A stretch of DNA of 42,645 bases from Planctomycetia bacterium. Its GTDB lineage: Bacteria > Planctomycetota > Planctomycetia > Pirellulales > UBA1268. The notes beneath the pieces are model-generated. The model made no database searches, was not told the origin of the DNA, and was given only the letters and a program-made list of their open reading frames with translations. The DNA is taken from contig JAIOPD010000137.1 of the NCBI GenBank assembly GCA_021414115.1, forward strand, positions 1 to 42,645. The letters are read 5' to 3'. Below, piece after piece: positions 4,614-31,058 of the stretch; the stretch's first letter is position 1, and the number at the start of each line of letters is the position of its first letter. Made by a program: the position numbers and the translations under genes.

Positions 4614-6149
4614 TCAGCGGCTATCACCACGGCGGAGGCGGGTGAACAGGCTGCGGTAGTCGCCGGGGCGGACGCTGAAAATCGACCGCGGTGTCTCGTC
4701 GGTCTCGTGCAGGTCGTCTTCGATGACCACCATGTCGGCATCGTCGAGTTCGGCGCCATCGGCGACCACCGCGGCCGCATGGGCAGGAGTGGTCTGCGGT
4801 TCGGCGTGGGCTTCTCGGCTCGCTTCCGGTTCCCGCTGCTCCCGATCCGGCTCGGACGCGGCCGGTTGCGGTCCGCCGTCGAGTTGGGACAGCGTCACGA
4901 GCAGCCGCCCCATGGCCTGTCCCTCGCGGCTCGTCACCGGCCGGCACGAGCGGAAGTCGTCCGGTCCTTCCACGACGAGACGTTGTGTCGCGTGGCCATC
5001 CTCGCGAAAGAACGAGTCGAAGGGATCGGTCGCCTGATCGAAGACGAGTTCGACGTCGGGCCCGTTCCAAGGATCGCCGTCGTGCGGTTTCGCGGGTTCG
5101 CAGTGGGCCGCCGGTTCGGCGGGTGCCGGGGTCTCGAACGCGGCGAACGCGTCATCGCCCGAGCCAAACTCGATCATCTCCATGGCGTCATCGCCGAACG
5201 CGGAATTGAGTTGCTCGTCGCCGATGTCGCGGGCCGCCTCAGGCATGCGGTCGTCGGTTGGGACGCGAGGCTCCAGACCCATCGGCGCGGGCAGCCGCTG
5301 GATCTCCCGCCAGGCGGCGGCGATGTCGGCGGGGGTCACCTGCCGGCTCGATTCGGCGACGATCACGAGCGCCTGATCGCAGAGCTGGTTGATCAGCCGC
5401 GGCACGCCGTCGGTGGCCGTGAAGACGGCGTCATCGCAGCCGGCGGCAAACAACCGATCCCAGGACAGGCCGGCAGCCTTCGTCTGCGTCCGCAGGTAGG
5501 CCATCGTCTCGGCGTGGTCGAGCGGTTCGAGGTAGGCGCGAACGGCGATGCGCTGCGAGAGACTTTCCATCCGCGGGCCCGCGAGCATCTCCTCCAGCCG
5601 CAGCGTGCCGGCCAGGACGAGATGCACGGCCGGGAGCGGCGTGGGCACATTGGTGAGCAGCCGCAACTCCTCGATCAGCCGGGTGGGCAGCGTGTTGGCT
5701 TCATCGACGAGGATCGCGAGCCCCGATCCGGAGGCGGCGAGGCCCCGGATCCGTTCCACCAAGGCGATGCGGAGATCGGCCTCGTCGATGCCGCGGTAAG
5801 GCTCGCCGATCGCGGCCAGCACGGCCTGCCAGAGCGCGCGGCGGGTGCAGATGCTCGCGCCCGACAAGAGCGCGACGTCGAAGTCGTCGCGGACATGATC
5901 GGCGACCTTCGCCAGCAACAGCGACTTCCCCGTGCCCGGCGATCCCACGACCAGCGACGCCCCTTCGGCCCGCCGGATGCACCGCTCGATTCCCTTGAGG
6001 GCGGCCTCGATCTGCGTCGCAGGATGATAGAACTGCGTTCGCGGTGCGGCCATGAAGGGGCGGCTCGACGGGTGCCGGCTGGGGATATGCATGTCGCGTG
6101 TCATTCCGGTGACGTGTGGGGACCTCGCTCGGATCTCGACAGAAGTCAT
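4614..6149 (-). CDS. ExeA/GspA-like AAA+ ATPase
   Basis: This 511-residue protein has an AAA domain typical of ExeA/MshM-type secretion-assembly ATPases. It has a Walker A GSPGTGKS (about residues 69-76), a Walker B-like LAILVDEAN, and a TDGVPRLINQLCDQAL sensor-2/lid motif, which is the signature of that group. It opens with the phrase FYHPATQIEAALKGIERCI, corresponding to the usual 'F..tP.....al..l...i' start of ExeA proteins. The second half (about 310-490) is acidic, rich in Ala/Pro/Glu, and probably disordered. In other bacteria these proteins help assemble type II secretion or pilus secretins, or load peptidoglycan-binding partners; no secretion genes flank it here, so the role is inferred. 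ATG 6149 has a distant GGAGG; starts at residues 16 or 20 are also possible. Confidence 0.85.
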   Translation of the reverse strand: MTSVEIRARSPHVTGMTRDMHIPSRHPSSRPFMAAPRTQFYHPATQIEAALKGIERCIRRAEGASLVVGSPGTGKSLLLAKVADHVRDDFDVALLSGASICTRRALWQAVLAAIGEPYRGIDEADLRIALVERIRGLAASGSGLAILVDEANTLPTRLIEELRLLTNVPTPLPAVHLVLAGTLRLEEMLAGPRMESLSQRIAVRAYLEPLDHAETMAYLRTQTKAAGLSWDRLFAAGCDDAVFTATDGVPRLINQLCDQALVIVAESSRQVTPADIAAAWREIQRLPAPMGLEPRVPTDDRMPEAARDIGDEQLNSAFGDDAMEMIEFGSGDDAFAAFETPAPAEPAAHCEPAKPHDGDPWNGPDVELVFDQATDPFDSFFREDGHATQRLVVEGPDDFRSCRPVTSREGQAMGRLLVTLSQLDGGPQPAASEPDREQREPEASREAHAEPQTTPAHAAAVVADGAELDDADMVVIEDDLHETDETPRSIFSVRPGDYRSLFTRLRRGDSR

Positions 6150-28887: not shown

Positions 28888-29274
28888 TCAGCGTTTTTTG
28901 CGGTCCCGACACTGCGGAGCGGCGGCCAGTGTGATCACGATTACTTCTTCTCCGGTGACCGGGCTGATGTCGTGGTGCAGGTTGACCGGCGACGCCCCGG
29001 CCGCCTCGCGAACGAGCGATTCCAGCACCGTCCGTCCGGCGGTCACGAGCCGGCTGCGGAGCTGTTTCAAAAGGTCCGCCCCGGTTTCGCCGCCGGTACC
29101 GCGGCCCTCCAGCAGCCGCTGCTCCGCGGCGGTGAGCACGCCGTCCATGTGAACGAAGAGCCGGTTGTCGACGAGGTGGGCGTGGACGTTGCGCGGCCCG
29201 CGGCCCATGAACTCCTGCTGGAACCGCGACACCGCGTCGCAGACAGCGGCTTCGATCTCGCCTTGCGACTTCAT
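28888..29274 (-). CDS. DUF2294 (MpsC-like) protein 1
   Basis: ATG 29274 follows GGAG. The 128-residue product is nearly collinear with the third copy of this locus: both begin MKSQGEIEAAVCD, have QQEF(M/L)GRGPR and end with HHDIS...TGEEVIV. This is the DUF2294 pattern (PF10057, named after MpsC of the MpsABC Na+/bicarbonate-type membrane-potential system in staphylococci). The role of stand-alone copies is unknown. It is divergent from the other two DUF2294 genes. The 238-bp gap to the HerA-like gene on its far side contains only a short GTCGCG/CGCGAC inverted repeat near the stop codon. Confidence 0.8.
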   Translation of the reverse strand: MKSQGEIEAAVCDAVSRFQQEFMGRGPRNVHAHLVDNRLFVHMDGVLTAAEQRLLEGRGTGGETGADLLKQLRSRLVTAGRTVLESLVREAAGASPVNLHHDISPVTGEEVIVITLAAAPQCRDRKKR

Positions 29275-29475: not shown

Positions 29476-29540
29476 GAAGTGTCGGCGCAGATTTTTTGGT
29501 GTTCTTCCCGCTTCTGGAAGTGTCGGGCGGAAAAATCTGC
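29476..29540. promoter_or_regulatory. divergent regulatory region: direct and inverted repeats
   Basis: GAAGTGTCGG occurs at 29476-29485 and 29517-29526 (41-bp period). GCAGATTTTT (29487-29496) and AAAAATCTGC (29531-29540) form an exact 10-bp inverted repeat. Both pairs lie just upstream of the -35 of the rightward promoter, in the space between the divergent DUF2294 genes, so they are good operator candidates. The rest of 29275-29475 shows nothing I recognise beyond a C-run/G-run hairpin near 29297. Confidence 0.55.
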
Positions 29541-29568
29541 TTGCGTTGCCCAGACCCCCAAATATAAT
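29541..29568 (+). promoter_or_regulatory. sigma-70-type promoter with perfect TATAAT
   Basis: TTGCGT (29541-29546), a 16-bp spacer and TATAAT (29563-29568) form a strong housekeeping-type promoter in a GC-rich genome where TATAAT is rare by chance. Transcription would begin near 29575 and read into the structured leader. Confidence 0.7.
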
Positions 29569-29574
29569 CCCAGG

Positions 29575-29743
29575 CGTTCCGATGACGGGAACGGTGGAAA
29601 CACCGCTCGCGGCCGAGGAAAAGAGCAACAGATCGATCGGAAGACGGGACGAGGGGCAGTCCGGCACCAGCCGGAAGGTCCGTCGCAGCGTAAGCCGGCG
29701 AGAGAGAAAGCCTTCGGGCGTTCTTTCCCGCCGGCTTTTTTTG
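29575..29743 (+). ncRNA. structured GGA-rich leader RNA / sRNA candidate ahead of the DUF2294-csrA operon
   Basis: About 170 nt between the promoter and a strong terminator can fold into consecutive hairpins: CGTTCC/GGAACG (29575-29593), GGTG-GAAA-CACC (29593-29604, competing for one base), GCTC/GAGC (29605-29626, with GAGGA in the loop), and CCGGC-ACCA-GCCGG (29661-29674) inside an outer GACGGG/TCCGTC stem (29643-29684). Six GGA motifs occur, at about 29588, 29596, 29617, 29639, 29648 and 29673. No coding frame stands out. Because csrA is the second gene downstream, a CsrA-binding decoy or an attenuator is the simplest reading; I match it to no known riboswitch class. Confidence 0.55.
29692..29743 (+). 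terminator. strong intrinsic terminator upstream of the DUF2294-csrA operon
   Basis: AAGCCGGCG (29692-29700) pairs with CGCCGGCTT (29729-29737), extended inward by AGAAAG/TTCTTT around a TTCG loop and followed by a run of seven T. It lies 38-90 nt before the next start codon, a position suited to conditional readthrough. Confidence 0.9.
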
Positions 29744-29780
29744 TTTCCATCCGGCACCTTCAGGCACAGACACCGCCACG

Positions 29781-30242
29781 ATGAAAACGATCTCGTCGGA
29801 ACGACTCGCTCGCACGGTGGCCCACGTTGCCGCCAGTTTCGAACACGTGCTCCTGGGCCGCTCGCCGACGAGCGTCAGCGTGGTGGCGGAGGACGACTGG
29901 ATGGTCGTGCATCTGCACGAACCATTTTCGCCCACGGAGCGGCGGCTCGCCGGCGACGCGGAGGGCGCGCGGAAAGTTCGCGAGTTTCACCGCTATCTCT
30001 TCGACACCACGCTCGATTCGCTGCTGCGGCAGATCCGTCAGCGCACGGGCGTGGACCTTCGCGGCGCCATCGCGCATGTCGACACGCAGACCGGCAGCGT
30101 GCTCAAGACGCTGACGACCCGGCCGGCAGTCGACCTTTTTCTGCTGGGGCCGGGGCTGCCGGCCCTGGGTGTGCCGGTGAATGCCCACCTGCAGGCCAAT
30201 GCATCGATCATGGCGGGCGGCAATGGAGCCGTTCGCGGCTGA
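29781..30242 (+). CDS. DUF2294 (MpsC-like) protein 2, divergent
   Basis: The 153-residue product shares the DUF2294 outline but is more divergent than its neighbours. It begins SERLARTVAHVAASFEHVLL, then GRSPTSVSVV (in place of GRGPRxVHAH), FSPTERRLAGD and a long helix with RQIRQRTGVDLRGAIAHVDT. The usual TGEEVIV end is replaced by TGSVLKTLTTRPAVDLFLLG and a tail of about 20 residues. No clear Shine-Dalgarno precedes ATG 29781, which fits control through the leader. csrA follows after 46 nt. Confidence 0.7.
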   Translation: MKTISSERLARTVAHVAASFEHVLLGRSPTSVSVVAEDDWMVVHLHEPFSPTERRLAGDAEGARKVREFHRYLFDTTLDSLLRQIRQRTGVDLRGAIAHVDTQTGSVLKTLTTRPAVDLFLLGPGLPALGVPVNAHLQANASIMAGGNGAVRG

Positions 30243-30575: not shown

Positions 30576-31058
30576 ATGAAGTCCCAGGGAGAAATCGAGG
30601 CGGCAGTCTGCGACGGCATCTCGCGGTTTCAGCAGGAGTTCCTCGGCCGGGGGCCGCGTGACATCCACGCGCACCTCGTCGGGCCGCTCGTTGTCGTGCG
30701 ACTGCAGGGCGTGCTCACACCCGCCGAGCGGCAGTTGATGGCATCGAGTCCGGTGACGGCGGCCGTTGCCGAGGGGAACGGGAACGGGAATGGGAACGGT
30801 GATGGACAGAGTCATGCCAGTGGGAATGGCAACGGCAATGGTCACGGCGGTGACAATGGCAACGGACGCGCCCTTCTCAAGCAGGTGCGGGCGCACATGG
30901 TGGCCACGGGACGGCCACGGCTGCAGGAGATCGTGGAGACGGCCACGGCCGTGGCCCTGGTGAGCGTGCATCACGACATCTCGACGCTCACCGGCGAAGA
31001 AGTGATCGTGTTCTCGCTCAAGGAGCCACCCGCGTGCCGTGCGAAGCGGAAGCCCTGA
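30576..31058 (+). CDS. DUF2294 (MpsC-like) protein 3 with Asn-Gly repeat insert
   Basis: The 160-residue product starts MKSQGEIEAAVCDGISRFQQ and has EFLGRGPRDIHAHLV, LTPAERQLM, and a C-terminal HHDISTLTGEEVIVFSL, all DUF2294 features. A low-complexity insert of about 35 residues, largely alternating Gly and Asn (GNGNGNGNGDG... and SGNGNGNGHGGDNGNG), lies between the two halves where copy 1 has only a short loop. The insert resembles the tail of the adjacent CsrA-like protein. ATG 30576 is two nt after the csrA stop, so translation is coupled. Confidence 0.82.
   Translation: MKSQGEIEAAVCDGISRFQQEFLGRGPRDIHAHLVGPLVVVRLQGVLTPAERQLMASSPVTAAVAEGNGNGNGNGDGQSHASGNGNGNGHGGDNGNGRALLKQVRAHMVATGRPRLQEIVETATAVALVSVHHDISTLTGEEVIVFSLKEPPACRAKRKP

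Follow-up and report, generated by a model that had tools for sequence, protein, structure and literature searches.

The systems that come closest to the element described here are ON riboswitches such as those for adenine (pbuE), fluoride (crcB) and ZTP (pfl), in which the closing stem of the aptamer overlaps the terminator. Tandem copies are typical of leader switches. Protein-read attenuation leaders of the PyrR, TRAP and LicT types likewise form either a terminator or an upstream fold that excludes it. Our element lies in a window (the whole stretch of DNA that was analysed, 42,645 nucleotides long) from a Planctomycetia bacterium. It resembles the pbuE, crcB and pfl switches in that the closing stem of its core shares bases with the 5' arm of the terminator, in its position in cis before same-strand genes and in its tandem copies, but it differs in the sequence and shape of the core, which is one unbranched helix with internal loops, and in its targets, which are stress genes rather than one pathway. 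It shares with the PyrR, TRAP and LicT leaders the choice between terminator and exclusive fold, but it matches no Rfam family and its regulon covers stress functions that are unrelated to one another. The structured RNA itself is genuine and conserved. Taking its conservation, covariation, cis location, shared terminator arm and computed exclusive folds together, we consider it probable that this is a cis-acting leader RNA controlling termination ahead of an mpsC-csrA-mpsC operon, and that it is one member of an RNA family through which planctomycetes control a general-stress set.

The features of the locus are collected in the table below. A sequence-only reading of this DNA had proposed a promoter, a GGA-rich RNA able to form four hairpins and a terminator ahead of csrA, acting either as a decoy for CsrA or as an attenuator. 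The promoter is present at the spacing proposed, with its -35 box TTGCGT at 29541-29546 separated by 16 nt from the -10 box TATAAT at 29563-29568, and so is the terminator, with a TTCG loop at 29713-29716 and seven T at 29736-29742. Genes including csrA follow, the first of which, mpsC1, starts 38 nt 3' of the U-run and has no evident Shine-Dalgarno sequence ahead of its start at 29781. The leader RNA folds into an unusually stable structure, with an energy of -82.7 kcal/mol where dinucleotide shuffles reach -61.3 +/- 4.7 (z -4.6). Rather than as four hairpins, it is better seen as three parts: a 5' hairpin domain that varies, a single long core helix interrupted by internal loops, and the terminator. 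A further mpsC gene lies upstream of the element in the opposite direction (29271-28888, minus strand), and the paralogues at 28888-29271 (minus) and 30576-31058 (plus), which flank the element in opposite directions, have near-identical N-termini (MKSQGEIEAAVCD). Low-complexity repeats rich in Gly and Asn (NGNGDGNGHTNG; GNGNGNGDGQ...) are encoded between 30450 and 30900, both in the C-terminal tail of CsrA and in the middle of MpsC2. A perfect 10-bp inverted repeat, GCAGATTTTT / AAAAATCTGC, occupies 29487-29540 and abuts the -35 box on its 5' side; one half, AAAAATCTG, is retained ahead of the promoter in several relatives (L003, L005, L009).

Table. Features of the leader, its core pairings and the operon behind it, in window coordinates
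Feature	Position	Strand	Basis
Sigma-70-like promoter, TTGCGT-16-TATAAT	29541-29568	+	sequence
5' hairpin domain, sequence varies among copies, generally structured	29574-29626	+	fold
Conserved core, 62 nt	29636-29697	+	covariance model R1, covariation, RNAalifold
P0	29638-29640/29695-29697	+	core pairing
P1	29644-29646/29689-29691	+	core pairing
P2	29650-29652/29683-29685	+	core pairing
P3	29654-29657/29678-29681	+	core pairing
P4	29660-29665/29670-29675	+	core pairing
Intrinsic terminator, UUCG loop, seven U	29692-29742	+	sequence, fold
mpsC1, first gene of the operon, Pfam PF10057 MpsC	29781-30242	+	
csrA, Pfam PF02599	30289-30573	+	
mpsC2, Pfam PF10057	30576-31058	+	

The core is a single unbranched helix of 19 pairs with three internal loops. 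From the outside inwards, P0 (CGG/CCG) is followed by a 3x3 loop (mostly AUG/AAG), P1 (ACU/AGU or ACG/CGU), a second 3x3 loop and P2, and then, after a mismatch, by P3 (GRGC/GYYC), a small internal loop and the variable hairpin P4; an approximate consensus, read off the alignment, is UCGGAUGACUAGAURARGRGCAA-hairpin-GGYYCGUUGACGAGUAAGCCG. The structure drawn by hand is identical to the 19-pair helix returned by RNAalifold from 22 copies. The check that the sequence-only reading had suggested, a covariance model search for stems with compensatory changes, was run, and its result favours a real RNA. The model, R1, was built from 22 sequences and covers the core only, with the 3' arm of the terminator left out; it matches the window copy, which belongs to its training set, with 81 bits (E 3.8e-22). 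In an alignment of 139 sequences, fitted to the model, two-sided changes that keep the pairing occur at 15 of the 19 pairs and fill 179 cells, compared with 33 +/- 6 in shuffles, and 94.5% of cells pair, a share that falls to about 44% when the partner is slid by one column; RNAalifold on that alignment alone returns 14 of the pairs. The P0 pairs are almost invariant, so that covariation says nothing about them, and their role is deduced from conservation, position and folding energies. The 5' hairpin domain has a mean z of -2.1 over 121 copies.

We found 192 non-redundant copies of the core. A DNA search of 40 related genomes showed that 29638-29746 is kept ahead of the same operon throughout the genus, that the sequence from promoter to core is variable among relatives, and that weaker copies occur in other families ahead of other genes. 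Within the order, R1 finds the core in 42 of 146 genomes. Across Planctomycetota as a whole it is sparse, with matches in 6 of 199 genomes sampled throughout the phylum, one of the six being the window's own. This last genome has nine matches, one of which is a reverse-strand echo of the window copy, leaving eight distinct places. A degenerate DNA pattern found at least 120 stretches in named genomes, although it demanded bases just 3' of the core, so that the taxon list is biased and incomplete. Among the matches listed the titles were planctomycete, apart from one 'bacterium', and none was a proteobacterium; some names of metagenome-assembled genomes (Kuenenia, for example) may be wrong. A plasmid collection gave no match for one relative. 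One leader (L064, minus strand) holds two complete cores (5725-5785 and 5854-5912), each with its own terminator, 69 nt apart, and copies form five more pairs on the same strand as well as eight divergent ones.

A match to an unrelated known riboswitch family was one of the outcomes that the earlier reading had named as speaking against it. The window and seven loci with their relatives matched none of the 4227 families of Rfam 15 at the gathering score, lax thresholds included, and all sub-threshold matches were far below the gathering scores. In the literature we found no paper on such an element, the sole lead being the Rhodopirellula-1 motif, which Table 1 of Weinberg 2010 (PMC2864571) enters as an ambiguous RNA, judged cis-regulatory, from Proteobacteria and Planctomycetes and with no Rfam accession. 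As far as that table entry allows a comparison, the two are alike in being planctomycete, judged cis-regulatory and without an Rfam accession, and unlike in that Rhodopirellula-1 is listed also for Proteobacteria and as an ambiguous RNA (PMC2864571). We give identity of the two motifs a chance of about one in eight, by judgement and not by computation. Our element shows the features of a terminator-switch leader, namely a structured core with compensatory changes, a terminator that excludes it in computed folds, and a place in the 5' leader of same-strand genes. Unless it proves to be Rhodopirellula-1, the best reading is a new family of this known kind.

The last six bases of the core, AAGCCG, are the start of the terminator's 5' arm in the window, and this arm is shared with the end of the core in 176 of 185 copies. 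The terminator stem has about 20 pairs (median -34 kcal/mol) and is followed by seven U; its arms covary, with 0.93 paired to their own partner compared with 0.76 to shuffled partners. Since R1 was built without the 3' arm, the terminator represents independent evidence. Around 5% of copies are without a clear U-run, and these are mostly the variant found ahead of exported proteins in the window's own family. Such variant cores (GACGAGUUGCUGGGC...CCCCGGCGCAGCGUAGGCCG) occur in L083, L086, L090, L094, L101, L103 and L104, ahead of exported, partly PEP-CTERM proteins; several of these lack a clear U-run and carry a second hairpin downstream.

Bases 29695-29697 are common to the outer core helix and the terminator, and the two cannot coexist. 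In computed ensembles, the median probability of P0 is 0.97 before the 3' arm of the terminator is made and 0.00 after, by which point the terminator arm pairs with downstream bases at 0.96; for the window copy, the probability of P0 is 0.98 without the 3' arm and below 0.001 with it. On thermodynamic grounds, two mutually exclusive states are predicted, a closed core and then the terminator. This would fit a leader whose default is termination and which allows readthrough once the core is stabilised, although the reverse switch logic could conceivably apply. Terminator stems of about 20 pairs exceed what a simple terminator needs, which sits less easily with our explanation. A conserved upstream strand opposing P0 (UUCCGAU with AUCGGAA, taken from the minimum-energy fold of the window) was rejected, the copies' own upstream sequences pairing at 0.24 compared with 0.26 for swapped ones. 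Nor was there any evidence that the 5' hairpin domain pairs with the core.

The position of the copies points to action in cis. In 179 of 184 copies the element is followed by a same-strand gene, the median distance being 103 nt. Sites of the form TTGCnT-16-TAnAAT lie 44-82 nt 5' of the core in 121 of 185 copies, and strong promoter-like sites (score of at least 14) were found for 119 of 185 copies compared with 6 of 169 control stretches. No strong promoter-like site was found between terminator and start codon (0/118), whereas the stretch of equal size 5' of the core holds one in 58 of 121. Since strong sites precede the core but are missing 3' of the terminator, transcription of the downstream gene probably passes through the terminator in most copies; a separate promoter for that gene was considered and rejected on the same count. 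The attenuator half of the earlier proposal thus gains support. The promoters of the family (29540-29568 in the window, for example) share CTTGCnTT-16-TAnAAT and not TTGACA, and the sigma factor behind this pattern could be the house one or a special one.

About 190 genes, mostly stress-related, are preceded by the element. Among the 152 first genes called, using a home-made ORF score some of whose calls are wrong, 41 encode MpsC, often with csrA next, followed by CsbD (6), KaiC (4), sigma factors (4), PEP-CTERM proteins (4), GlsB/YeaQ (3), a desaturase (3), DUF1328 (2) and CsrA itself (2). Hsp70, catalase, ferritin, SufB, acetyl-CoA hydrolase and BON proteins also occur among these, and an acetate-kinase-like target was recognised by eye. 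In the window's own family, most further copies stand ahead of exported proteins and have a variant core. The targets do not point to one pathway, but they mainly follow one theme, which we take to be the stationary-phase and general-stress set.

We infer the ON direction, as well as the existence and nature of a signal, and propose the following sequence of events. RNA polymerase would start near 29575, transcribing the 5' hairpin before the core; the outer stem of the core, P0 (CGG/CCG), would sequester the bases with which the terminator stem is to begin. If no signal is present, the long terminator hairpin would displace the three P0 pairs and transcription would stop at the U-run. A signal, whether small molecule or protein, could bind the conserved purine-rich internal loops and stabilise P0 and P1, in which case the terminator could not nucleate and the operon would be transcribed. 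The leader would then be an ON switch without a separate antiterminator. We somewhat favour direct sensing of a small molecule over a protein-read leader. The fuller proposal, that this is a new riboswitch class responding to general stress or starvation through an alarmone or the like, and that RNA rather than an alternative sigma factor defines a planctomycete general-stress regulon, csrA included, is one that we advance only tentatively.

A leader read by an RNA-binding protein is less likely again, but it has more in its favour than the other alternatives, and regulation by a protein acting in trans would fit a set of general stress genes. In one form, CsrA would bind the conserved CGGA in the 5' strand of P0, keep P0 open and favour termination, so that csrA would limit its own operon. 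The GGA of this CGGA is kept in 96% of copies, CsrA is present in all 146 genomes of the order, and for 27 of 155 copies its gene lies no more than 1.5 kb downstream. Against this form, the CGG is already explained, being conserved because it pairs with CCG; copies with CGGU, UGGC or CGAA exist; and 104 genomes have CsrA but lack the motif. CsrA dimers usually bridge two GGA, whereas the conserved GGA is single, and the window leader (29577-29743) contains no ANGGA. Single-site CsrA feedback at the conserved CGGA is possible on those copies that precede csrA.

It may also be that the leader, once terminated, is the actual product, acting in trans as a small RNA of some 170 nt, with readthrough into the operon incidental. 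Its own promoter, compact fold, very strong terminator and several copies per genome would suit such a role, but its place directly before a same-strand gene at a narrow range of distances, the lack of a strong promoter-like site after the terminator, and a 5' domain, the expected place of a seed, that is not conserved in sequence make this improbable. More improbable still is that the conserved unit of promoter and terminator regulates nothing and is just an insulator or a mobile repeat; copies do occur in clusters and in tandem and divergent pairs, but the core loops are kept across distant families with compensatory changes, the target theme is consistent and copies nearly always precede genes. 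Least credible of all is the decoy of the sequence-only reading, a CsrB/RsmZ-type RNA titrating CsrA, which we rejected: a terminated RNA with six GGA (29588, 29596, 29617, 29639, 29647 and 29673) does adjoin csrA as had been described, but their number is what chance would give, both in the window leader at 29577-29743 (6, with 5.8 +/- 1.8 in shuffles) and across the family (3.06 per copy, with 3.08 expected), that leader has no ANGGA, let alone in repeated hairpin loops, the GGA lie outside the conserved loops save for the CGGA of P0, the motif is found in 42 of the 146 genomes that all have CsrA, and, unlike the stand-alone trans-acting genes CsrB, RsmY and RsmZ, the element stands in cis before many different and unrelated genes, most of them not csrA.

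Gene regulation in planctomycetes is little known. If the reading of this RNA as a cis-acting terminator switch is right, then it would provide a common RNA-level control point for planctomycete stress proteins, CsrA and, in one family, PEP-CTERM exported proteins. It would also represent a well-supported orphan switch whose ligand can be sought directly, and MpsC, DUF1328, CsbD and GlsB, whose genes are of unknown function, would gain a shared signal.
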